Source of the DNA: Marinobacter sp. Arc7-DN-1
GTDB lineage: Bacteria; Pseudomonadota; Gammaproteobacteria; Pseudomonadales; Oleiphilaceae
Direction of reading: 5' to 3'
Assembly (NCBI RefSeq): GCF_003441595.1
Contig: NZ_CP031848.1
Coordinates: 1,674,001 to 1,738,000, forward strand
Length of the DNA stretch: 64,000 bases
The translations under genes were made by a program, and so were the position numbers. Below, piece by piece: positions 9,808-59,474 of this stretch. How positions within the stretch are numbered: position 1 is the first letter of the stretch; each line of letters opens with the position of its first letter. The notes under the pieces were generated by a model that worked only from the letters and a program-made list of their open reading frames with translations, searched no databases and had not been told where the DNA came from.

Positions 9808-11151
9808 GACTGGCTCCGACTCGGCCCTTGAGCTGGTCTTTTGCGAGTCTCCTTCGCCGCGCAACAACTCGGCAAATGTCCGGGTTTCATCGGCTCTTTG
9901 CGTTCCCACCAGCTCCGCGGGAATCACATTCGGGAGCCGATCAACGACCCGGTCTTCATCGTTGCGGACAACCCTCAGTACTTCACCCACGGTAATCAGA
10001 TCCAGTGCCCGCCCGGGCGCAAGCTGATCGCCCTGGCGCCCCGCCAGCGTCAAAAGCCCTGCCCGGATAAGCTTGTCGCTCAGGGCACGGGTCACTTCGC
10101 CGGGCACCTTCAGTTCCTGCTCCAGTGCTTCCTGTTGCGGCGCCGGCCTGCCTTCACTGAAGGGTTTGGCCACCAGCCACATGGTTGCCAGTGCAACCTT
10201 CTCCTGCAACTCGGGCGCCAGTTGCACCTGACGCCGCTTGGCCACGGTACCCGGATTTTGCAGATAAAACGCCAGGCTGGCACCGAGCAGCAGAATCATC
10301 CAGTTCAGGTAGATCCAGATCAACAGGATAATGCCAATGGCGAAACTGGAGTATATTGCCGCGTATTTGGCCGATCCCGCGACAAACGAGGCGAACAGCA
10401 TCCCCGCCGCCTGCCAGGAAACCCCGGCAATCAGGCCGCCAATCGCAGCATAGCGCAACCGGACCCGGGTGTTGGGCATGAACACATAAACAAAGGTAAA
10501 GGCACCAACCACAAGGAAGAACGGGGTAAAACGACTGACGACAAGAATCACAGAGCCAAAGGGCTCAATCTCGATCAGTTTCTGGACAATCGTCGAGGAA
10601 AAAATGGTGGCACTGACACCAATGGCCGACACCATCAGAAGCGGGCCAACCATGATGACGCTGAGATAATTACTGAAGCGCTGGGCCACGGAGCGCATGT
10701 CCGGCACCCGCCAGATCATGTTGAAGGAACGTTCTATCTTCTGAAGTAGTGAAACAACCGTGTAAACCAGCAACGCAAGTCCGACGGACCCCAGCACCCC
10801 GACTTTCATGTTGTCGACAAATCCCAGAATCCGTTCCGCAAGTTCGATGCCCTGTGGCCCAAGGGGCTGAAAAAACTGGAACAGGAACGGCTCCATTCGC
10901 TGGTGCACACCCAGCGCCTTCAGCACCGAGAAGCTCAGGGCAAGTAACGGCACAATACTCAGCAACGTGGTGTAAACCAGACTCATGGCATGGAGCGTCA
11001 GCTGCCCGCTGAGAACATCCCGGGCCATTGCATACACCGTGCGCCCGACCTTGTACAACCAGGTCCAGGGCCAGCTCTGGGGCGGATTGGGGTTGGCCAG
11101 AATCCAGCTCTCCGCAGCCTGGAGCCGTTCTTTCAATTGGAATGAAGCCAC
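9790..11151 (-). CDS. YihY/BrkB family inner-membrane protein
   Basis: A 453-residue protein with six predicted membrane helices in its first 300 residues and a soluble C-terminal region resembling a winged helix. It shows the family pattern AMSLVYTTLLSIVPLLALSF and, later, FVPNTRV-like and GASLAFYLQN segments. Proteins of this family were once called ribonuclease BN but are membrane proteins of uncertain function. The GTG start has AGGA upstream. Convergent with, and slightly overlapping, the HDOD gene. Confidence 0.85.
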   Translation of the reverse strand: MASFQLKERLQAAESWILANPNPPQSWPWTWLYKVGRTVYAMARDVLSGQLTLHAMSLVYTTLLSIVPLLALSFSVLKALGVHQRMEPFLFQFFQPLGPQGIELAERILGFVDNMKVGVLGSVGLALLVYTVVSLLQKIERSFNMIWRVPDMRSVAQRFSNYLSVIMVGPLLMVSAIGVSATIFSSTIVQKLIEIEPFGSVILVVSRFTPFFLVVGAFTFVYVFMPNTRVRLRYAAIGGLIAGVSWQAAGMLFASFVAGSAKYAAIYSSFAIGIILLIWIYLNWMILLLGASLAFYLQNPGTVAKRRQVQLAPELQEKVALATMWLVAKPFSEGRPAPQQEALEQELKVPGEVTRALSDKLIRAGLLTLAGRQGDQLAPGRALDLITVGEVLRVVRNDEDRVVDRLPNVIPAELVGTQRADETRTFAELLRGEGDSQKTSSRAESEPVSASDG

Positions 11152-32811: not shown

Positions 32812-32841
32812 GGGGTCAGATGAAGGCTTTCATCTGACCCC
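32812..32841. repeat. GGGGTCAGATGAA hairpin, single unit
   Basis: Arms GGGGTCAGATGAA (32812-32824) and its exact complement (32829-32841) around GGCT. It lies between the convergent moaA and nosL ends and may serve as a bidirectional terminator. Same family as the repeats at 43484 and 54491. Confidence 0.85.
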
Positions 32842-41734: not shown

Positions 41735-42484
41735 TTACTGGCTGATTTCGATCAGTCGTTGAGGATCTGAAATGAACAGTCGGCTGCGGTTAACCCGCAC
41801 CAGTCCGTTGGATTTCAGATCGGCCAGAATCCGGGAGAAGGTCTCCGGCTGCATGGCCAGCCTGGAAGCAACCAGGCATTTGGGCAATGGCAACTCTACC
41901 TCACCGCCCTCTTCCGGGCCGTTTGGCAACAGATCAATCAGGTAACGGATCAGCCGGTCACGGGCGCTCTGGACCGTCATGATTTCCAGGTCGTGGAACC
42001 GGGAGACAGCCCGCTTGGCATAATGGCGGAGGGCTGCCCGGGCATACTGGAGGTTGCTCTCAAGCAGGTCCTGGTAGGCATGTATGGGAATCATCAGCAC
42101 TTCGCTGGATTTAAGGGCTTCGGCGTAACAGGCGTACCGGGGCGGGTCGGCGTAGATCATGACTTCGGCGATGCTGTCGCCAGGGGCGATGCTGTCGAGG
42201 GTGCGGTCGATCCCCGAGGAGTCCAGGCGGTACAGGCGCAGGCGGCCGGAGATGACGAAGAAAAAGTGATGGGCCGGCATGTCCTGGCGATACAGTAACT
42301 GATGATGCCCCAGGCGTAGTCTTCGGGACTGCTGGATCAGCTGCTGCAGATCCTTGCCACTGAGTTCCGAGAACATTGGATGACTGCGTAAGACCTTCAG
42401 GCCACCCTCGTCGTCAAAGGGTTTGTTCACGGCGACCAGGACGGGTTTAGTGTGGCGGGTTTCGGCAGTTTGTGAAAGTGCCAT
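41735..42484 (-). CDS. dnr: Crp/Fnr family regulator, DNR type
   Basis: A 249-residue regulator with an N-terminal cyclic-nucleotide-binding-like sensor domain and a C-terminal HTH. The recognition helix has ETFSR, matching the ExxSR of FNR-type proteins that read TTGAT-N4-ATCAA. There is no N-terminal cysteine cluster, so it is a DNR-type NO sensor rather than an O2-sensing FNR/ANR. ATG 42484 is used; the longer frame to 42622 runs through the promoter. An FNR-type box lies 115 bases upstream. Confidence 0.85.
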   Translation of the reverse strand: MALSQTAETRHTKPVLVAVNKPFDDEGGLKVLRSHPMFSELSGKDLQQLIQQSRRLRLGHHQLLYRQDMPAHHFFFVISGRLRLYRLDSSGIDRTLDSIAPGDSIAEVMIYADPPRYACYAEALKSSEVLMIPIHAYQDLLESNLQYARAALRHYAKRAVSRFHDLEIMTVQSARDRLIRYLIDLLPNGPEEGGEVELPLPKCLVASRLAMQPETFSRILADLKSNGLVRVNRSRLFISDPQRLIEISQ

Positions 42485-42598
42485 TGATGTATCCCCTCTG
42501 CATGTTAATGCATCCAAAATTATATTTTTAATAGTAGAGGGATACTGGTTAAAAATCGCTCCCCCCATGGGGGTAATAGGGGGATTATTCGGGAGTAA

Positions 42599-42612
42599 TT
42601 GATCTAACTCAA
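42599..42612. promoter_or_regulatory. FNR/ANR/DNR box of the dnr promoter
   Basis: TTGAT-CTAA-CTCAA, 9 of 10 consensus positions. On the minus strand TATTAC (42578-42573) lies at the expected -10 distance, placing the box near -40. Confidence 0.7.
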
Positions 42613-42655
42613 AGATTTTCATTTTTAGCCAGCTTGGCGTTTGGGCGCGCGCCTT

Positions 42656-43483: not shown

Positions 43484-43573
43484 GGGGTCAGATGAAGGCG
43501 TTCCGCTAGTGAAGTTGGGGTCAGATGAAGGCGTTCATCTGACCCCAGGTTTGGAACGCCTTCATCTGACCCC
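43484..43573. repeat. GGGGTCAGATGAA repeat, nested double hairpin after narI
   Basis: Outer arms of 21 bases (43484-43504 with 43553-43573) are perfectly complementary and enclose an inner hairpin of 13-base arms (43517-43529 with 43534-43546) with a GGCG loop. In addition a 29-base segment (43475-43503) is repeated directly at 43508-43536. Same unit as at 32812 and 54491. Confidence 0.85.
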
Positions 43574-50493: not shown

Positions 50494-51762
50494 TTATATC
50501 CCCCGGTGGAGAAAGCTCTCACGCTCGTGCCGGCGGCTCTCACGGGCAAACAGGAACAGGCAGCCGGCAAGCAGGAGGAAGAGAATCATGAAAACGGCGC
50601 TGCGAATGCCCAGCCAGTGGTTAACACCACTGAATATCACCAGCAGGCCAAAGGCCACGGAGTAGGCGCTCACCAGCAACAAACCGGCAACAAATGCCGC
50701 CACCGTGCGATTTTCAACAATAACCAGCCTCTGCAGGCTGCCCATGGTGCAACCCATGGCCAGCCCCAGGGTTACCACAAACACGCCCTCGACCCGCATG
50801 GGCAGAGCGAATTTCACCAGGATTGTGGCGTCGACGCCCTGGATAAACAGCGTCATGGGTGGGTACGACAGCACAAACAATGCGATGAGACAGACCACCA
50901 GCGCCCGGCTGACAACCCTGGCGCTGCCGAACCGGTCTGATAACCCGCCCCCGGCAATCTGGGCCAGGGCACCCGGAATAACGAACCACTGTGCCAGCCG
51001 TGCGCCAGAGTCCACCGGCAGCTCAAACTGGCCAGACAGGTAGTCCGGCAACCAGAGAGCCAGCGCAAAGAAGCTGCCAGCCACAATGCCAAAGTAGCCA
51101 CACAGTTGTCCGGCCCGCTTTCGCCTCATTCTTTGCAACAATACCCTGACAGATGTTTCAGCGGCGGAGTCCGCCGCCGCATCTTCCGGATCGGTCAGCA
51201 TGATCAGCAGCGCAAGAACCAGGACAAGCACGACAAGATAAGCCAGTGGAACCGCGTGCCAGGAAAAAGCCTCATGGACCAGCGGCACCAGATAGTAATT
51301 GAAGCCGGCACCGATAACGCCTGCGCCGAACACACCCAGCACCAGGCCGAGGCGCGAGGACTCGCAATGGCGCGTCACGAACTGCAACCCGGCACTGTAA
51401 TAGCCCCCGGCCAGCCCAAGCCCACCAGCGGCGATGAGGTAACCCGGGAAGGTATCGGTGATCAGAAGTATCGCCATGCAGGCGGCCAGCCCGGACAGGC
51501 AGATCAACATGATCCGGCGGGCGCCGAATTTCTGCGCTGCCAGCCCGGCAGGAATGGCCAACGCGGCACTGACCGCCATAGGCATTGCCAGCAAGAAGCC
51601 GAACTGGAGATTGCCGAGGTTCAGCTCTGAGCGCAGGTGCACGCCAGCTACCGCAAACAGGGTCCAGCTTCCGGCAGCAATGACAAAGCCTGCCACCGCC
51701 AAGGGCAGCACGACGGCCAGTGACGCCAGCCGGTCATCTGCTCGATCCGCCTCTGACTCCAT
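50494..51762 (-). CDS. narK: Nitrate/nitrite transporter of the NarK/NNP family (MFS)
   Basis: A 422-residue major-facilitator protein with twelve predicted helices. The N-terminal half contains the nitrate-signature-like GLAGGYYSAGLQFVTR region and an A-type motif GLAAQKFGARR. It is transcribed toward narGHJI as in Pseudomonas narK1K2GHJI; only one transporter is present, closest to the NarK1-like type. ATG 51762 is used (a TTG frame starts 21 bases earlier). An FNR-type box about 95 bases upstream has a good -10 on this strand. Confidence 0.82.
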   Translation of the reverse strand: MESEADRADDRLASLAVVLPLAVAGFVIAAGSWTLFAVAGVHLRSELNLGNLQFGFLLAMPMAVSAALAIPAGLAAQKFGARRIMLICLSGLAACMAILLITDTFPGYLIAAGGLGLAGGYYSAGLQFVTRHCESSRLGLVLGVFGAGVIGAGFNYYLVPLVHEAFSWHAVPLAYLVVLVLVLALLIMLTDPEDAAADSAAETSVRVLLQRMRRKRAGQLCGYFGIVAGSFFALALWLPDYLSGQFELPVDSGARLAQWFVIPGALAQIAGGGLSDRFGSARVVSRALVVCLIALFVLSYPPMTLFIQGVDATILVKFALPMRVEGVFVVTLGLAMGCTMGSLQRLVIVENRTVAAFVAGLLLVSAYSVAFGLLVIFSGVNHWLGIRSAVFMILFLLLAGCLFLFARESRRHERESFLHRGI

Positions 51763-51803
51763 TAATGTCACTCTGTGAAACAAACCTGACTTTCAGTTTC
51801 ATC

Positions 51804-51856: not shown

Positions 51857-51870
51857 TTGACTATCCTCAA
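51857..51870. promoter_or_regulatory. FNR/ANR/DNR box between narK and narX
   Basis: TTGAC-TATC-CTCAA, 8 of 10 consensus positions. On the minus strand CATAAT (51832-51827) lies about 43 bases from its centre to the predicted start, a class II arrangement for narK. NarL-like heptamers (for example TGGGGTA at 51849) flank it. Confidence 0.6.
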
Positions 51871-51943: not shown

Positions 51944-53803
51944 ATGAAATCCAGAAGCCCACTTGTTAACCGAATTGCCCTTGTCGTCGGCGCCGTGGTG
52001 CTGACCGCGCTGGTGAGCATGGCCACCACACTTGCCGTGTCCAAGAGCATTGAGGGCAATGCCACTGCCATTAACCTGGCCGGCGCCCTTCGCATGGGGG
52101 CTTTCCAGTTGCTCGCCCGAAGCGCCGGCCCGGTAACGGCGGAATCCGGACCGGGCTCAATGGGGCAGATGCTTGACCGTTACCGGGAAAAACTGGCCGA
52201 CACAGGTATCACCAGGACCATTCCGGGGGCCCGGGACCACCCTCTGGCCAGCCAGTACCAGGCTATTCTGGATTCGTGGGAAGAGGTGCTGCGGCCCGCG
52301 CTGAACGATCACCCCCAGGGCACCCCGGTAACGGGTGTCATGCTGACTGCAACCGAAAAGTACGTTGACGATGTGGATCGGCTGGTGAGCATGCTGGAAC
52401 AGCGCACCGAAGCCCGGATCGATCTGTTGCATCTGATCCAGATCATCAGCCTGGCCTTTTCCGTCCTGATTATTGTCGCGCTGTTTATCGATCTCAAGAA
52501 CCGCATTCTCCGGCCACTTCGCAAACTGGTCAGTGTAGCCATCGCCGTGGGCGACCAGGATTTCTCCAGGAAGACCAATATGAGGGGCTCCGATGAACTC
52601 GCCCAGCTCGGGCAGGCATTTGACCAGATGACCAGCGAGCTGGCGCTGACCTACTACGAACTGGAAGAAAGAGCCCGCCTGAAAACCGAGGAACTGGAAA
52701 AAAGCCACGCGGCACTGCAGTTGCTCCACTCAGCAAGCCGGGACCTGTTTGCCAACCACGATTTATGCCATGGCTCCATCCCCATGCTACAGGAGCTGGA
52801 ACAGCTTCTCGGCATCGGGCCCATCCGCCTGTACCTCCATGACAGGGAATCCTCGGAGCCGGTGGAGGCTGTCACCACGGCCAGCCAGGAGCGGCCCTTC
52901 TATTGCAACGACCACCATTGCAACGCCTGCCTGGTCACGCCTGAGGTGTATGACGAACTTCCCCTGGAAAACAACGACGGGCGCCGGCTGCTGCTGCCGA
53001 TACGCACCCCCGGCCAGCTGCTTGGCACCCTGGAAGTCTGGTACCCCGCCGACGAAGGCCTCTCGAAAACCGCCCGCCGGCTTCTGGAAACCCTCAGCGA
53101 CCAACTGGCCACCGCCATTATCCTGGAGCGGCAGATTACCGAGGAACAGCAACAGACCCTGGCTGAGGAGCGCACCGTGATCGCCCGGGAACTGCACGAT
53201 TCCCTGGCCCAGTCACTCTCCTACCTGAAAATGCAGGTTGCCCGGCTGAGGCGCCTCAACATCGACGGCGAGCAGCAATCGGTTCACGAAGCCATTCTGG
53301 ATGAACTCAGCACCGGCCTGAACAGCGCCTACCGCCAGCTGCGGGAGTTGCTGGCCACCTTCCGACTGAAGCTGGACACGCCGGACCTGGCCACGGCACT
53401 GCGAAAGACCGTCGAGGAATTTTCGGTGCGGCTGGGCAAGCCGGTGGAGTTGCAATACAACCTGCCACCCCAGACCCTGTCACCGAACGAGGAAATCCAC
53501 ACCCTGCAGATTGTCCGGGAAAGCCTGGCCAATGCGGTCAAACACGCAGATGCCACCGACATCAGCGTCGATGTGCTGTTCGAATCCCCCCAGGTCCGGG
53601 TACAAATCCGGGACAATGGCAAGGGCTTGCCCGGCGGCGACCAGCCGGTCAATCACTATGGACTGATCATCATGCAGGACCGCGCCAGAACCCTGGGTGG
53701 CCAGGTCAAGGTACAAAACCGGGATGAAGGCGGCGTGGAAGTCACGCTATTATTTGTGCCCAAAAGCCGGAACCTGATTCCCACAGAAGCTTCAAACGCC
53801 TGA
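51944..53803 (+). CDS. narX: Nitrate/nitrite sensor histidine kinase
   Basis: A 619-residue membrane kinase: TM1 (about 10-32), periplasmic domain with the nitrate-binding P-box [19 protein letters not shown]2 (about 168-188), HAMP, a central GAF-like module, the HisKA_3 H-box [18 protein letters not shown] with phospho-accepting H418, and the HATPase domain. The central module has a tight cysteine group C321, C326 and C329 (CNDHHCNAC). It should phosphorylate NarL, encoded 17 bases later. Confidence 0.93.
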
Positions 53804-53820
53804 TTACAAGAGAGAACCCG

Positions 53821-54477
53821 ATGTCTGAATCACCCGCTAGTATTCTGCTGATCGACGACCACCCCCTTCTTCGCCAGGGCATCAAACAGCTCATCGAAAT
53901 GGAAGACGACATGGTCGTTGCCGGAGAGGCCAGCAATGCCGCCGACGGCATTCGACTGGCCACTGAACTGGAGCCGGACCTGATTCTGATGGACCTGAAC
54001 ATGCCGGAAATGGACGGCATTGAAGCCCTGAAAAAACTGCGTGAGCAGAACATCAGTTCCCGTATTGTGATGTTTACCGTCTCGGACCAGGAAGACGACG
54101 TGGTGGCGGCACTGCGGGCCGGCGCGGACGGCTACCTTCTCAAGGACATGGAGCCTGAAGACATGATCGCCCAGCTTCACCAGGCGGCCGTCGGCAAGAT
54201 GGTTATCAGTGACCGCCTGACTACGCTGTTAGCCGAGGCCTTGCGCTCCAACAAACCCCAACAGGCATCGCGCCCGGATTTCGACAGCCTGACCCCCCGG
54301 GAAAAGGACATTCTCCGCCTGATCGCCGAAGGCCTGTCCAACAAGATGATCGGTCGCAAGCTGGACATCAGTGATGGTACCGTCAAGGTCCATGTGAAGC
54401 ACCTGCTGAAAAAACTGAACCTGCGCTCACGGGTGGAAGTTGCCGTGTGGGCGGTAGAGGAAGGCCTGCACCGCTGA
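53821..54477 (+). CDS. narL: Nitrate/nitrite response regulator
   Basis: A 218-residue NarL/FixJ-type regulator: receiver domain with the phospho-acceptor Asp in [13 protein letters not shown] and a C-terminal LuxR-type HTH ([23 protein letters not shown]... family pattern). Together with NarX it should activate narK-narGHJI when nitrate is present. A doubled hairpin repeat follows the stop by 13 bases. Confidence 0.94.
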
Positions 54478-54490
54478 GGGGCATTCCACC

Positions 54491-54550
54491 GGGGTCAGAT
54501 GAAAATGGGGTCAGATGAAAGTTCATCTGACCCCATTTTCATCTGATCCC
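54491..54550. repeat. GGGGTCAGATGAA repeat, tandem double unit after narL
   Basis: Arms of 29 bases (54491-54519 with 54522-54550), 28 of 29 complementary, each made of two GGGGTCAGATGAA units joined by AAT. It lies directly after narL and could terminate it. Confidence 0.85.
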
Positions 54551-54616: not shown

Positions 54617-55126
54617 ATGGAGCTGATCATGCTGCTGCCCAGGTTGCCATCATTCCCCTCACACTTGCCACTGCTTGACCAGACCCTGACAGTACTCCGG
54701 GAATACCTGCCCTCCCCCGCGCCGGTGCTTGGCGCTATTGATCGCGGAATCCCGGTGCCCCTCAAACAGTTGGCGGCCGAGGCGCCCCTCAATCGGCTGT
54801 TTGCTCAAGCGATCAATGACGGAGAATTTGAAGACTTCGAAGGCCATCGTATCCGGCTGGAAGTGAGCGGCGGGCAACCGGGCATCACCATTGGCTTCTG
54901 GGCCGGCCGTCTGCGAGTGATCGATGGTCCGGGCGAGGCGACGATCCGGGGCTCATTAGCCGCCTTCAAAACCCTGGCGGAGCGTCGGCAAGATCCTGAC
55001 CAGCTGTTTTTCCAGCGACGCCTGATAATCGAAGGAGACACCGAGCTTGGGCTGGCGCTAAAAAACCTGCTGGATAGTCTGGAGTGGAATTTCACCATCC
55101 GTCGGTTTCTGTTCAGTCAACAATAG
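54617..55126 (+). CDS. ubiT: SCP2-domain accessory factor of O2-independent ubiquinone synthesis
   Basis: A 169-residue SCP2-domain protein resembling UbiT (YhbT, 174 residues in E. coli): a lipid-binding fold with LEVSGGQPGITIGFWAG and a C-terminal LDSLEWNFTIRRFLF. UbiT, with UbiU and UbiV, supports anaerobic ubiquinone hydroxylation. ubiU and ubiV are not in the window. The start may be 54617 or the Met at 54629. Its position inside a denitrification island and an FNR-like box upstream support the assignment. Confidence 0.75.
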   Translation: MELIMLLPRLPSFPSHLPLLDQTLTVLREYLPSPAPVLGAIDRGIPVPLKQLAAEAPLNRLFAQAINDGEFEDFEGHRIRLEVSGGQPGITIGFWAGRLRVIDGPGEATIRGSLAAFKTLAERRQDPDQLFFQRRLIIEGDTELGLALKNLLDSLEWNFTIRRFLFSQQ

Positions 55127-55149: not shown

Positions 55150-55163
55150 TTGATAACAATCAA
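55150..55163. promoter_or_regulatory. Perfect FNR/ANR/DNR box upstream of pqqA
   Basis: TTGATAACAATCAA matches TTGAT-N4-ATCAA at all ten positions. It lies 205 bases before the pqqA start and 24 bases after ubiT. TATAAC at 55176-55181 is a possible -10. Confidence 0.8.
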
Positions 55164-55202
55164 TAATAATACACCTATAACAACTGGCCGAACTAACGCT
55201 TT

Positions 55203-55236
55203 CCGGGCTCGCCTGGCTGTTTCGCCAGGAAGCCGG
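55203..55236 (+). other. Stem-loop in the pqqA leader
   Basis: Inner stem CCTGGC / GCCAGG extended by GGCT / AGCC and CCGG-type pairs around a TGTTTC loop. No T-run follows. It is downstream of the FNR box, so it is either in the pqqA leader or the ubiT terminator. Confidence 0.5.
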
Positions 55237-55367
55237 ATAATTAATACCAAAGCGCCAGGTAATTAGGCCAAAGGTACCATTTATCCATCTGTTTCGTGGA
55301 GCCTAAAGTGAATGCAGCCAGAAAAACCACTGGCCATAAACATTCATTACATATACTGGAGATTGCC

Positions 55368-55442
55368 ATGAAGTGGACCGACCCGGATTTCAAAGACCTG
55401 AGATTGGGCTTTGAAGTAACAGCCTACGTTTACGTTCGCTAA
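55368..55442 (+). CDS. pqqA: PqqA precursor peptide
   Basis: A 24-residue peptide with the PqqA pattern: MKWTDPDFKDLRLGFEVTAY opens it and VYVR closes it. The two residues that become PQQ in the known pathway are present as E16 and Y20 in EVTAY. GGAGATT lies just upstream of the ATG. PqqD and PqqE are encoded next, and a hairpin separates pqqA from them, as expected for a peptide needed in excess. Identity is strong; whether the end product is PQQ is open because pqqB and pqqC are not in the window. Confidence 0.9.
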   Translation: MKWTDPDFKDLRLGFEVTAYVYVR

Positions 55443-55522: not shown

Positions 55523-55816
55523 GTGGCTGATTCAAACAATCACAACAGCCGGTCCAGATTCCGCATCGCCCCGGTATTCATGTTCCGGTGGGAAGAGTCC
55601 CAGCAAGCCTACGTTCTGATGTACCCCGAAGGCATCGTCAAGCTGAACACCACGGCCGGCGAAATCCTGACCCGCTGTAACGGAACGAACACAGTCGACG
55701 ACATTGTTCATCAACTGTCCAAACTGTTCTCCGAACAACCTGAATTCATCGAACCCCGCGTTCACCAGTTTCTGGAGGTGTGCCATGGCAAAGGCTGGAT
55801 CCAACCTCAATCTTGA
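55523..55816 (+). CDS. pqqD: PqqA-binding chaperone PqqD
   Basis: A 97-residue PqqD (RiPP recognition element) with the typical FRWEESQQAYVLMYPEGIVK and NTTAGEILTRCNG segments. It binds PqqA and presents it to PqqE. I place the start at the GTG at 55523, which has GTGAGG six bases upstream and gives the usual PqqD length; a GTG at 55496 would add nine residues. The 3' end overlaps pqqE by 32 bases. Confidence 0.9.
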   Translation: MADSNNHNSRSRFRIAPVFMFRWEESQQAYVLMYPEGIVKLNTTAGEILTRCNGTNTVDDIVHQLSKLFSEQPEFIEPRVHQFLEVCHGKGWIQPQS

Positions 55817-56918
55817 TGGCCAGGGCAACCCCGTGTGGCTGCTTCTGGAACTGACCTACAAGTGCCCTCTCAAATGCGCATTTTGCAGCAACCCGACCGA
55901 TCTCGATGACCATCAGGATGAGCTGACCACCGCCGAATGGAAAACCGTGATTCAGGATGCCCGCAAGATGGGAGCCATGCAGATTGGTTTCTCCGGTGGC
56001 GAACCCACTCTCCGCAAGGATCTGGAAGAGCTGGTGGCGGAAGCCAACGAACTGGGGTATTACACCAATCTGATTACATCCGGCATCGGCCTTACCCGCA
56101 AGCGGCTGGAAAACCTGAAAAAAGCCGGTCTGCGCCATATCCAGCTCGGTTTCCAGTCGAGCGATCCACAAACGGCCCATTGGCTTGCGGGTGTCGACTG
56201 CTACGAAAAGAAAGTCAACATGGCCCGGGAGATCAAAGCCCTTGGTTTTCCGATGGTTCTTAACATGCCGATATCCAGCCTTAACATCCACCAGGTACCG
56301 GACATCATCGATCTGGCCGCCGACATCGGCGTTGAATATCTGGAACTGGCTAACGTGCAGTATTACAACTGGGCCCTGGTGAACCGGGACCAACTGATGC
56401 CCACCCGAGAAGCGCTGGAGACAGCAGAGGCCCAGGTTGCCGAAGCCCGCAAGCAGCTCGGCGACAAAATGACCATTTTCTTTGTTATACCGGACTACTA
56501 CGAAGGCCGCCCCAAGGCCTGCATGAATGGCTGGGGCAGTATTCACCTGACCATCGCACCGGACGGTGTGGTACTGCCCTGTCAACAAGCCCGCTCCCTG
56601 CCCGATCTCAACTTTCCCGGTGTTCGCGATCATGACCTCAGTTGGATCTGGCACGAGTCCGAGAGCTTCAACCTCTACCGGGGGGACAGCTGGATGAAAG
56701 AGCCCTGTCGCAGCTGCCCGGAAAAAGAGCGGGATTTCGGTGGTTGTCGCTGCCAGGCCATGCTGCTGACCGGCGATGCTGCCAACGCAGACCCAGCCTG
56801 CAGCAAATCGCCCCAACATCACATTGTCCAGGAAGCCGTAATCCGGGCACTTGGCACAGAGCAGGACCACAAAAAGCTTATCGCCCGCGATGTGAGCTGG
56901 GTACCAACGGAGGTGTGA
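55785..56918 (+). CDS. pqqE: PqqE-type radical SAM enzyme
   Basis: A 377-residue radical-SAM/SPASM protein that in the known pathway joins the Glu and Tyr side chains of PqqA. The SAM cluster is CPLKCAFC (C27, C31, C34). Auxiliary-cluster residues C246, C266, C308, C311, D317, C321, C323 and C339 are all present in the PqqE arrangement, so it looks fully active. GGAGGTG precedes the ATG. Unusually, pqqB, pqqC and a protease gene are not adjacent; instead a membrane peptide, a PuuD-like protein and SerC/PyrD-like genes follow. Confidence 0.93.
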   Translation: MAKAGSNLNLDGQGNPVWLLLELTYKCPLKCAFCSNPTDLDDHQDELTTAEWKTVIQDARKMGAMQIGFSGGEPTLRKDLEELVAEANELGYYTNLITSGIGLTRKRLENLKKAGLRHIQLGFQSSDPQTAHWLAGVDCYEKKVNMAREIKALGFPMVLNMPISSLNIHQVPDIIDLAADIGVEYLELANVQYYNWALVNRDQLMPTREALETAEAQVAEARKQLGDKMTIFFVIPDYYEGRPKACMNGWGSIHLTIAPDGVVLPCQQARSLPDLNFPGVRDHDLSWIWHESESFNLYRGDSWMKEPCRSCPEKERDFGGCRCQAMLLTGDAANADPACSKSPQHHIVQEAVIRALGTEQDHKKLIARDVSWVPTEV

Positions 56919-56919
56919 T

Positions 56920-57027
56920 ATGAAATTACCTCACGATTCGCTCGCGGGAACTCTGGCCACGGCCATTGCCCTGACCGTTGTACTCTATCTGGTAACGGGT
57001 GCCTGGATTCGGTCGGGCCTGTCATGA
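56920..57027 (+). CDS. 35-residue single-span membrane peptide of the pqq-like cluster
   Basis: A short ORF starting one base after the pqqE stop and ending with a four-base ATGA overlap with the next gene, which makes chance unlikely. It encodes MKLPHDSL, one hydrophobic span (ATAIALTVVLYLVTGAW) and IRSGLS. I recognise no family. It may be a small subunit of a membrane complex with the PuuD-like protein. Confidence 0.65.
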   Translation: MKLPHDSLAGTLATAIALTVVLYLVTGAWIRSGLS

Positions 57028-57530
57028 GCTGGATGTTGATGGATATCGCCCTGCGCTGGCTCCACATCGTGTTTGCGTTGATCTGGGTTGGCCATAACTA
57101 CGCCAATGTGGTCAAGACCCCAAGGTTCATTCCCTTGCGTATTGATCCTGACGAAAGGAGTGCCAGATCCTCCGATCTGACCCGACGCATGCACCAGGAA
57201 CATGGCACCTTCCGGTACGCGTCCCTGGTGGTTCTGGCGTCAGGCGCCCTAATGCTCTGGAATCGCGACATTCTTGCGGACGTACTGATGCTCCAGGGTC
57301 ACCATGCGGTTATTGGAGTCGGCGCCTGGATCGGTGTCATCATGGTGCTGAACCTCTGGTTCGTACTCTGGCCCCATCAGAAGAAAGTACTGGGTTTTGT
57401 ACCGGCACCGGCCACAGAGCGGATCCGCTGTTCACGAATCACCTTTTTATCCTCCCGAACCAACACCATCCTCTCTTTCCCGCTGATTTTCTTTATGACT
57501 GCCGGAAGTCACGGGCTGGCGCTGTTCTGA
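57024..57530 (+). CDS. PuuD-like integral membrane protein (urate oxidase N-terminal domain family)
   Basis: A 168-residue protein with four or so membrane helices. It resembles the membrane domain of the PuuD urate oxidase: RWLHIVFALIWVGHNYANVV, WPHQKKVLG and SRTNTILSFPLIFFM. PuuD itself carries a C-terminal cytochrome c that is absent here. Histidines H14, H24, H57, H60, H93, H94, H118 and H163 could bind heme or another redox centre (inference). It overlaps its neighbours by four bases and one base, so it is translationally coupled in the pqq-like operon. Confidence 0.7.
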   Translation: MSWMLMDIALRWLHIVFALIWVGHNYANVVKTPRFIPLRIDPDERSARSSDLTRRMHQEHGTFRYASLVVLASGALMLWNRDILADVLMLQGHHAVIGVGAWIGVIMVLNLWFVLWPHQKKVLGFVPAPATERIRCSRITFLSSRTNTILSFPLIFFMTAGSHGLALF

Positions 57531-58612
57531 TGGACCGCGTATATAACTTCGCTGCAGGGCCGGCCGCCTTGCCGCCAGAAGTGCTGGCGCGGGCCCGGGC
57601 AAGCCTGGCCGATTGGCAGGGGCTGGGCTACTCATTACTGGAAGCGCCATTTACCAGCGATGAATTCAAGGCCCTGATGGACACCACCCGGCTCCAGGTG
57701 AGGACGGCCCTGGCAGTGCCAGACCGCTATCAGGTGGCTTTTCTGCAAGGCGGCGCATCGGCGCAGTTCTCACTGGTTCCGCTGAACCTGTTACCGCCCA
57801 CGGCCACCGCCGGCTATGTGGAAACGGGCCACTGGTCGGCAAGGGCACTTGAGGAGGGACGCCGGTATGGCCGAAGCCACCTGGTTGCCAGCACCCGAGG
57901 CACTGGTTTTGATCGTGTTCCTGCGGTTTCTGAATGGGCGCTGAATGAAAGTATCCACTATTGCCACATAACCCCCAACGAGACCGCAAATGGTGTCCAG
58001 TTCCCCGGAGACCCGGATTGTGGTGATATTCCCCTGATCGCGGATATGACCTCCGAGTTCCTGTCACGCCCTGTCGATATCGAACGTTACGGCATGATTT
58101 ACGCGGGAACCCAGAAAAACCTGGGTCCCACCGGCCTGGTTATTGCCATCATCCGCGAGGATCTGCTGGGACAGGCACGACCGGAAACCCCGACTGTGTT
58201 CAATTATCAGTTACTGATTGAACGTCAGAATCGCATCAATACGCCCCTGATGTTCGCCATTTACCTGGTTCACCTGATGCTCGACTGGATTGAGGAGCAA
58301 GGCGGGGTCGAGGCTCTTCATTCCCACAACATTGCCCAGAGCCAGGCAATTTATCGCATCATTGACGAAGACGACTTCTTTTACTGCCCGGTAATACCAG
58401 AGCACCGTTCCATTATGAACGTGTGTTTTGGCACACGTGATGAAAGCCAACAGCAGCGGTTTCTTGGCGAGGCTGAGGCAATGGGGCTGGCGAATCTGGC
58501 GGGGCACAGCCACGGCGGAGGACTTCGAGCCAGCCTCTACAATGCCCAGCCGGACGCCGCTGTCGCAGCTCTGGCCTCTTTCATGAGCCATTTCCGTCAG
58601 CGTTATGGCTAA
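57530..58612 (+). CDS. SerC-like aminotransferase lacking phosphate-binding residues
   Basis: A 360-residue fold-type I PLP enzyme clearly homologous to phosphoserine aminotransferase (NFAAGPAALP, FLQGGASAQF, HITPNETANG, YAGTQKNLGP with PLP lysine K196). Residues that hold the substrate phosphate in E. coli SerC are changed: the SHR motif (His41/Arg42) reads APF here, and GHRVVGGMR reads GHSHGGGLR (Arg329 lost; the carboxylate-binding Arg335 kept). So it is probably an aminotransferase for a non-phosphorylated substrate. Start overlaps the previous stop by one base; end overlaps the next gene by eight. Confidence 0.85.
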   Translation: MDRVYNFAAGPAALPPEVLARARASLADWQGLGYSLLEAPFTSDEFKALMDTTRLQVRTALAVPDRYQVAFLQGGASAQFSLVPLNLLPPTATAGYVETGHWSARALEEGRRYGRSHLVASTRGTGFDRVPAVSEWALNESIHYCHITPNETANGVQFPGDPDCGDIPLIADMTSEFLSRPVDIERYGMIYAGTQKNLGPTGLVIAIIREDLLGQARPETPTVFNYQLLIERQNRINTPLMFAIYLVHLMLDWIEEQGGVEALHSHNIAQSQAIYRIIDEDDFFYCPVIPEHRSIMNVCFGTRDESQQQRFLGEAEAMGLANLAGHSHGGGLRASLYNAQPDAAVAALASFMSHFRQRYG

Positions 58613-59474
58613 TCTGCTCACCAGACCAGCCAGTGACCGGGAGCGGGCCTTCATGAGCGCCTGCAACCAGGCCAGCAATCTCCCGCCTGCACGGGAGCGC
58701 CTGAGCGAGGGCGCCACTGCCATAAACTGCATGGGGTTGTCATTTACCAATCGCCTGGGGATTGCCGCGGGTTTTGATCAATGTGGAAAGCTGGGCCGAA
58801 GTGCCGGCAACCTGGGATTTGGCGCTATTGAACTGGGCAACTGGACCCAGGAAAACTGGCCCCGAAGCCTACCCGCCCAGCACCCCGAAGCAATACTCAA
58901 TACCCGGCTGGGAATTCGGCTGGCGGCAACCGCCCCTGTATCACCGGAGCAGGAAACCGCGCAACTCCTTCAACTGATCGAGAGAGCCTGGTTTACGGCG
59001 GACTACCTGACCATAGCTCCTGGCTGGCTTCAGCAGGCAGTTCCCTTCCGCCAGCTTTACCGCAATCTGCTCCGATTGCGGGAGGCTCAGCAGACACTGG
59101 AAAGTCAAACCCGAAAGTCCTGCCCCGTTGTTTACAAGCTCCGGGTAAAGCCGGGGAATGAAGAGGCCTGCAACCTCATTCCCTACCTCGCCTGCCAGGA
59201 AGTCGATGGCATCCTGATCAGCTTCGACTTCGGCAAACCCGTCGCCGATGCCCATTACCGCCAATGGCGGGACCCTGAACTTCAGGCGAGCACCTGCCGG
59301 GCCATTGAGGCCTGCCAGCATCATCTCAAAGGAAATACAGCTCTGCTGACCAATGGCGGCGTGTGTTCGCGCCAGAACTATCTGGACCGGCTCAATGCCG
59401 GTGCCGATCTGGTACAACTGCACAACGCGCTTGTGTTCGAAGGGCCTGACATTGGCTGGAAACTCAGTCAATAA
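58605..59474 (+). CDS. PyrD-like protein without dihydroorotate dehydrogenase active site
   Basis: A 289-residue TIM-barrel homologue of class 2 dihydroorotate dehydrogenase: [20 protein letters not shown] at the start, LGFGAIELG, and [34 protein letters not shown] at the end (residues about 244-278). Catalytic and substrate residues are lost: AAGFDK becomes AAGFDQ, the NxSSPNTPG loop (base Ser) becomes TIAPGWLQQ, and the NTT motif becomes SFD. It may still bind FMN. It is the last gene of the coupled chain, overlapping the convergent selD by 11 bases. Its reaction is unknown. Confidence 0.8.

Follow-up and report, generated by a model that had tools for sequence, protein, structure and literature searches.

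A second pqq operon with a conserved FNR-type box in Marinobacter as a candidate route to PQQ without oxygen

The pqqA gene found in the analysed window, which comprises 64,000 nucleotides (positions 1674001–1738000) of a 4.30-Mb single-contig genome with best-matching named loci from Marinobacter, is not the ordinary pqqA of this genome but belongs to a second PQQ operon (its genes are hereafter marked by the suffix 2). This operon is probably induced by ANR or DNR in anoxia and would provide its denitrifying host with PQQ in the absence of O2. A search for PqqE retrieved two genes, one in the window (genome positions 1729824–1730852) and one at 2077946–2079022, the latter as part of a canonical pqqABCDE operon at approximately 2.08 Mb for which PqqB and PqqC were found above the respective cut-offs. 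Anaerobic control of PQQ formation makes sense here because the second operon lacks the O2-dependent PqqB and PqqC and contains three other enzymes instead.

The operon is located in an island for the respiration of nitrate and nitrous oxide that encodes NosR, NosZ, NosD, NosL, NarI, NarJ, NarG, narXL, and a Crp/Fnr regulator, and the genome contains both narG and nosZ. Among the neighboring genes (all coordinates hereafter refer to the window unless stated otherwise) are narXL (51944–54477, +) coding for a nitrate sensor and its regulator, with NarL above its cut-off and NarX the best match for the sensor yet below cut-off, and, next to but outside the operon, ubiT (54617–55126, +; NF047962, 115.8 bits, cut-off 46.9) for O2-independent ubiquinone synthesis. 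The Crp/Fnr-family regulator (41735–42622, −; domains cNMP_binding and HTH_Crp_2) is a candidate DNR. The window also contains palindromic REP-like elements based on GGGGTCAGATGAAA (11 matches compared to 0.5 expected; 32812–32841, 43484–43573, and 54491–54550), the last of which lies directly between narL and ubiT.

The gene order of the operon is pqqA2-pqqD2-pqqE2-TM-PuuD-like-SerC-like-PyrD-like, with neither pqqB nor pqqC, and the tight spacing or overlap of the frames suggests a single operon, which ends against a convergent selD. The first gene, pqqA2 (55368–55442, +), encodes a type-2 PqqA precursor of 24 amino acids (MKWTDPDFKDLRLGFEVTAYVYVR; TIGR02107, 35.3 bits; PF08042, PqqA, 40.9 bits). 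It is followed by pqqD2 (55523–55816, +) for the peptide chaperone, which scored 85.5 bits and above the cut-off with TIGR03859 but under that of PRK02079, and by pqqE2 (55785–56918, +) for a radical SAM protein of a separate PqqE clade (TIGR02109, 516 bits, above cut-off). A 35-amino acid, single-TM reading frame (56920–57027, +) is often conserved, with orthologs detected by tblastn at many loci. The remaining three genes encode a PuuD-like membrane protein of 168 amino acids (57024–57530, +), which matches part of Urate_ox_N (PF06181, 47.6 bits) and occurs at 80 loci, the SerC-fold PLP enzyme SerC2 (57530–58612, +), which has relatives in the PDB, and the class-2 DHODH-fold flavoprotein PyrD2 (58605–59474, +). 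Common to this operon and canonical pqqABCDE are a PqqA with the E-x3-Y motif, PqqD, PqqE, and a promoter element (CCAAAG(G)TACCAT), whereas the lack of pqqB and pqqC, the three extra genes, the FNR-type box, and the separate PqqE clade distinguish it from the canonical set.

When 84,980 species genomes were scanned for the membrane protein, 95 relatives were found, of which 80 loci were kept. In about 75 of these 80 loci the order pqqA2-D2-E2-(TM)-PuuD-like-serC2-pyrD2 is preserved, and the remainder are mostly cut by contig ends. The carriers are Alpha-, Beta-, and Gammaproteobacteria, mostly denitrifiers and methylotrophs, and include Marinobacter, Pseudomonas, Stutzerimonas, Denitrificimonas, Halomonas/Billgrantia, Motiliproteus, Sedimenticola, Thauera, Azoarcus, Hydrogenophaga, Methylophaga-like and Methylotenera-like methylotrophs, and Hyphomicrobium. 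PuuD-like homologs of 32–38% identity elsewhere in the phylum are not located beside pqq genes. All five Marinobacter carriers possess narG and nosZ; as most non-carriers do so as well, this association alone is not significant. Of 48 cluster genomes, 46 contain UbiT, and all 10 that were tested for a PQQ alcohol dehydrogenase, including the genome of the window, have one. Spread by viruses was rejected since the PuuD-like gene was not found in IMG/VR, and spread of the region by plasmids since PLSDB contained no match at the megablast level.

Some loci deviate from this organization. In L210 (G560:C23) the order is pqqD2-pqqE2-pqqA2-PuuD-like with neither serC2 nor pyrD2 nearby, and the PuuD-like protein may act there without the other two enzymes; in G508, pyrD2 was not found between serC2 and a protease gene. 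Five loci (L066, L069, L075, L079, and L209) extend the operon by genes for an M48 protease and a creatininase-family protein related to MftE, which are located behind pyrD2 (e.g., 12515–14510 in L066 and 12496–14460 in L079), or behind serC2 in L209. These could possibly be dedicated PqqA2 peptidases, and their presence would be fitting for the release of a modified dipeptide. The kinship with MftE, a RiPP-cofactor peptidase, recalls the mycofactocin pathway; unlike in that pathway, the creatininase-family proteins stay under the MftE cut-off (85–92 bits compared to 172) and are slightly nearer to creatininase proper, and the window contains no such gene. In L066, the operon is further adjoined by genes for a quinoprotein relay metallohydrolase (TIGR04559) and a fused SoxYZ carrier (TIGR04557; 15250–17161), a pair situated 11 kb from a PQQ alcohol dehydrogenase gene.

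A cluster of this type has been described before. Li et al. (2025; Mol Microbiol, PMC12423496) reported pqqAED-puuD-serC-pyrD in Hyphomicrobium denitrificans (Hden_0548–0553), listed Halomonas, Stutzerimonas, Methylophaga, and Azoarcus among other bacteria carrying it, and described the possibility that PQQ is made there without O2 as a “tempting speculation.” Their cluster resembles the operon in the window in gene set and order, in being second to a canonical pqqABCDE, and in having a denitrifier as host. Upon deletion of two ArsR-type repressors, the pqq transcripts of the cluster dropped along with those of denitrification and ubiXDTUV genes (PMC12423496); FNR is not mentioned in the text of that publication. 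An experimental test of an O2-independent PQQ route was not found in the open-licence literature.

The E-x3-Y motif is present in all 72 PqqA2 orthologs. Their C-terminus is a nearly invariant type-2 signature with a second tyrosine, GFEVTAYVYVR, as compared to GFEVTMYFANR in canonical PqqA. In the PqqE tree, the type-2 and canonical proteins form the two sides of one well-supported branch when L110 is set aside, a mislabelled row for which the type-2 gene had been extracted because the canonical pqqE is cut by a contig edge. Among the cluster genomes, 47 of 50 encode a PqqC and 45 of 48 a PqqB that score above the cut-off, and the operon normally is an addition to the aerobic pqq set. Two PqqC frames in betaproteobacterial cluster genomes (G098:C82:67125 and G088:C2:7660) contain one in-frame TGA each. 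In four genomes, however, namely Billgrantia campisalis, Motiliproteus MSK22-1, and two of Sedimenticola, the type-2 protein is the sole PqqE while pqqB and pqqC are present. The type-2 pqq genes, pqqB, and pqqC form one gene run in Motiliproteus MSK22-1 and both Sedimenticola genomes, whereas B. campisalis carries pqqA1-pqqB-pqqC with no pqqD or pqqE nearby (L214; G070:C45:199000–213000) and, at a distance of 27 kb within this contig, PqqD2/PqqE2. Because these genomes pair a sole PqqE2 with pqqB and pqqC, PqqE2 likely yields the normal cross-linked PQQ intermediate, and the trio of PuuD-like protein, SerC2, and PyrD2 likely is an alternative ending of the pathway beside PqqB and PqqC. Halomonas heilongjiangensis was discarded as a further single-PqqE genome because of a contig-end artefact.

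The reverse case, genomes in which the cluster suffices in the absence of pqqB and pqqC, was judged weak. Only one genome with a complete operon lacks both PqqB and PqqC, and this is a metagenome-assembled genome (MAG) of the Rhodospirillales (G073) that may be incomplete; quinoprotein-associated genes lie beside its operon, the contig also encodes a PQQ alcohol dehydrogenase, and two relatives with the PuuD-like gene possess pqqC. Methylophaga OBS4 (G089) was rejected as a second case, as its contig ends inside the cluster.

The sequences of SerC2 and PyrD2 depart from those of their housekeeping counterparts in a consistent manner. In true SerC, His41, Arg42, and Arg329 bind the phosphate, as known from PSAT structures. 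In SerC2, His41 is replaced by Phe in all 79 sequences compared, and both Arg42 and Arg329 are lost (one sequence having Lys at the latter position), although all 80 proteins retain the PLP-site residues Lys198, Asp174, and Trp102, and 79 of the 80 also Thr153. PyrD2 is highly variable, with about 25% identity among distant members. Its model (pLDDT 90.4) has the fold of a class-2 dihydroorotate dehydrogenase, with E. coli DHODH (7t5k/1f76) as best match, and the protein keeps the FMN-site glycines and Lys217 (76/76), but neither the catalytic Ser175 nor the orotate-binding Asn177, Asn246, and Thr247 are conserved; the Asn172 position is kept in 68 of 76 sequences and occupied by Ala in the copy of the window. 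With the cofactor residues for PLP and FMN kept and the usual substrate sites lost, both enzymes look repurposed for another substrate. The PuuD-like protein has four invariant histidines (His14, His24, His60, and His163), and its model is a four-helix bundle (pLDDT 86.6) for which the PDB fold search returned no match. PuuD itself is a membrane-bound cytochrome c urate oxidase (PMC4562309) with an eight-helix domain and a C-terminal cytochrome c. The window protein corresponds roughly to the second half of Urate_ox_N, comprises about half of the membrane domain, with four helices, and contains neither a CXXCH motif nor a cytochrome c domain.

Together these observations outline the following pathway. 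An FNR-family regulator (ANR or DNR) would induce the operon when oxygen is absent, whereupon PqqE2 with PqqD2 would cross-link Glu and Tyr of PqqA2 as in the ordinary pathway, and a host protease would release the cross-linked product. The PuuD-like protein, SerC2, and PyrD2 would then replace the O2-using steps of PqqB and PqqC, with quinone or cytochrome c of the respiratory chain instead of O2 accepting the electrons. One member of this trio would also add the oxygen to the product. Such a function would resemble in its logic the UbiT/UbiU/UbiV route of O2-independent ubiquinone synthesis, a route under the control of FNR in E. coli (PMC10470549), in that it would be an O2-free substitute for O2-dependent steps, and ubiT is the neighbor of the operon; the enzymes and the cofactor differ, however, and no UbiU/UbiV-type gene was recognized in the operon. 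Synthesis of PQQ without O2 is suggested by the constant trio order, the FNR box at pqqA2, an operon devoid of pqqB and pqqC beside a full canonical set elsewhere in the genome, the four genomes with PqqE2 as sole PqqE, the changed substrate sites of SerC2 and PyrD2, the peptidase genes behind pyrD2 in some loci, UbiT and the PQQ alcohol dehydrogenase in the cluster genomes, and the co-varying transcripts in Hyphomicrobium.

One difficulty of this scheme is the PLP enzyme. Since PQQ retains the amino nitrogens of both Glu and Tyr, the need for such an enzyme is puzzling. PqqA2 might instead give rise to a PQQ-related but different cofactor or peptide, finished by the PLP enzyme and a flavoprotein coupled to the respiratory chain and made in anoxic cells only, so that the box would serve this anaerobic redox cofactor. 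The distinct C-terminus of type-2 PqqA, the separate PqqE clade, and a transaminase-type enzyme without an obvious role in PQQ formation are in line with this idea, but it appears unlikely: type-2 PqqE as the sole PqqE beside pqqB and pqqC in B. campisalis, Motiliproteus, and Sedimenticola suggests the same intermediate, and PQQ alcohol dehydrogenases are encoded in the cluster genomes tested. A different objection to O2-independent synthesis is that nearly all cluster genomes also carry pqqB and pqqC. This would be expected if the second pqqADE set merely raised the precursor dosage at low oxygen, PqqB and PqqC finishing PQQ with trace O2 and the trio genes being passengers. Such a scenario seems quite unlikely, however, as the order of the trio is constant across three proteobacterial classes and two of its enzymes no longer possess the substrate sites of their housekeeping counterparts, a change that passengers would not need.

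The regulatory part of the preferred reading, induction of a second PQQ operon in anoxia, relies on an FNR/ANR/DNR-type box (TTGATAACAATCAA, 55150–55163, not assigned to a strand) that is located 24 bp past ubiT and whose center lies 211 bp upstream of the pqqA2 start codon. As stated in the original prediction, this is the best FNR-type site of the window, being the sole 10/10 (zero-mismatch) match to TTGATNNNNATCAA within the 64 kb. The runner-up sites (9/10) are located at 10310 and at 42599, the latter at the start of the Crp/Fnr-family gene mentioned above, and the site at 51857 before an MFS (narK-like) gene (50494–51783, −) has the score of 8/10 attributed to it earlier. Within 400 bp upstream of 73 pqqA2 loci, a perfect box was found in 21 and one of at least 9/10 in 36 cases, compared to 0.19 and 1.76, respectively, expected from 400-bp windows taken at random from these loci, and to 2.6 loci with at least 9/10 expected from regions upstream of other ORFs. 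The TTGATNNNNATCAA site is more than 10-fold enriched over these backgrounds, where the 73 loci span many families but are related, so that the counts are not independent. None of 17 canonical pqqA upstream regions contained the box or any site above 7/10.

The distance between box and ATG is 166–182 bp in Pseudomonas, the Halomonadaceae, and some Betaproteobacteria, 210–231 bp in Marinobacter and Methylotenera, and 119–137 bp in the Thiotrichaceae and related gammaproteobacterial MAGs. Perfect boxes occur at pqqA2 of Pseudomonas, the Thiotrichaceae, the Methylophilaceae, and others, and boxes of 9/10 in the Halomonadaceae; in those families no ubiT was found directly upstream, and the box often lies 166–178 bp from the ATG. 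A chance match, or a downstream element of ubiT unrelated to pqqA2, is thus a very improbable explanation of the site in the window. Its position close behind ubiT and far from pqqA2, about 155 bp before the predicted transcription start and beyond the usual class I/II sites, would favor this explanation, but since perfect boxes recur at pqqA2 where the immediate upstream gene is not ubiT, the site belongs to pqqA2. The original prediction named absence of the box from relatives retaining the cluster as an argument against control of pqqA by it, and this applies to a part of these relatives, whereas others keep the box: a good box is missing in M. aromaticivorans, Motiliproteus MSK22-1, and Sedimenticola, degenerate at the equivalent position in Stutzerimonas, and also missing at further loci. 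Loss of strict anaerobic control in Sedimenticola and Motiliproteus MSK22-1 would make sense because their single PqqADE set must also serve PqqB and PqqC. The recurrence of the box in several proteobacterial families with differing upstream neighbors well supports the predicted anaerobic control of pqqA2 by an FNR-family regulator, in agreement with what had been proposed from the window alone. ANR, DNR, and FNR cannot be told apart by the sequence of the site; the Crp/Fnr regulator encoded at 41735–42622 could bind it and is one candidate.

The stretch between box and pqqA2 contains further conserved elements. Upstream lies TACCAAAG (55245–55252, +), the first half of a two-part promoter element, which is conserved in Marinobacter and has ACCAA-type equivalents at pqqA2 of Pseudomonas and in canonical pqqA promoters. 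It is followed by the promoter element CCAAAGGTACCAT (55268–55280, +), which is conserved in the alignment of Marinobacter pqqA2 regions and shared with canonical pqqA (CCAAAGTACCAT), where elements of this type were found at −82 to −115 of nearly all genes examined. In the canonical Pseudomonas and Stutzerimonas pqqA regions examined, CCAAAGTACCAT is nearly invariant approximately 82 bp before the gene, e.g., in L037 near 12200 (−). This shared element may be the site of a general pqq activator of the AgmR type, AgmR being the reported likely pqq regulator in Pseudomonas (PMC12997753). A probable −10 region (CCTAAAGTG, 55302–55310, +) is kept as CCTA(A/G/C)AGTG in eight Marinobacter sequences, and the promoter-like block formed by it and CCAAAGGTACCAT suggests a transcription start near 55316. 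The scan for sigma-70 promoters remained empty, and a class II FNR promoter right behind the box was rejected as there is no consistent −10 region at the expected distance. Activating FNR sites are usually centered at about −41.5 or between −61 and −93 relative to the start. Because the Marinobacter box would be located at about −155, either the FNR-family regulator acts from afar together with the pqq activator or a second start exists.

A structured leader of 205 bases, as had been postulated for this stretch, was not corroborated, this length being merely the distance from box to ATG. The proposed stem-loop (55203–55236, +) does fold strongly on paper (−20.6 kcal/mol alone) but is specific to this one sequence, and the whole 204-nt stretch folds little better than shuffled sequences (z = −1.81). 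With the hairpin absent from seven Marinobacter relatives (54% of cells paired, without a clear excess over shuffles), no supporting covariation among them, no Rfam match for the region, and a conserved promoter inside it, a riboswitch-like regulatory RNA leader is extremely improbable despite the strong hairpin in the single sequence.

The final steps of PQQ synthesis are considered to require O2. According to a recent publication, PQQ enzymes can function under strict anoxia only on carried-over or external PQQ (PMC11102522), and Klebsiella pneumoniae and P. aeruginosa, which have the canonical genes only, form no anaerobic PQQ (cited in PMC12423496). The idea of an O2-independent PQQ synthesis is already published as a speculation (Li et al., 2025; PMC12423496). 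Added here are the Marinobacter member, the family-wide FNR box, the residue loss in SerC and PyrD, the genomes with PqqE2 as sole PqqE beside PqqB and PqqC, and the protease/creatininase extension. The speculation of 2025 is now better supported and directly testable, with the product and the chemistry predicted, and the genomes in which PqqE2 occurs beside PqqB and PqqC make simple knock-outs sufficient for this purpose. If true, such a route would uncover three enzyme activities for which no substrate is known, would explain how PQQ dehydrogenases run without oxygen in denitrifying methylotrophs and alcohol oxidizers, and would be relevant to methanol-fed denitrification.
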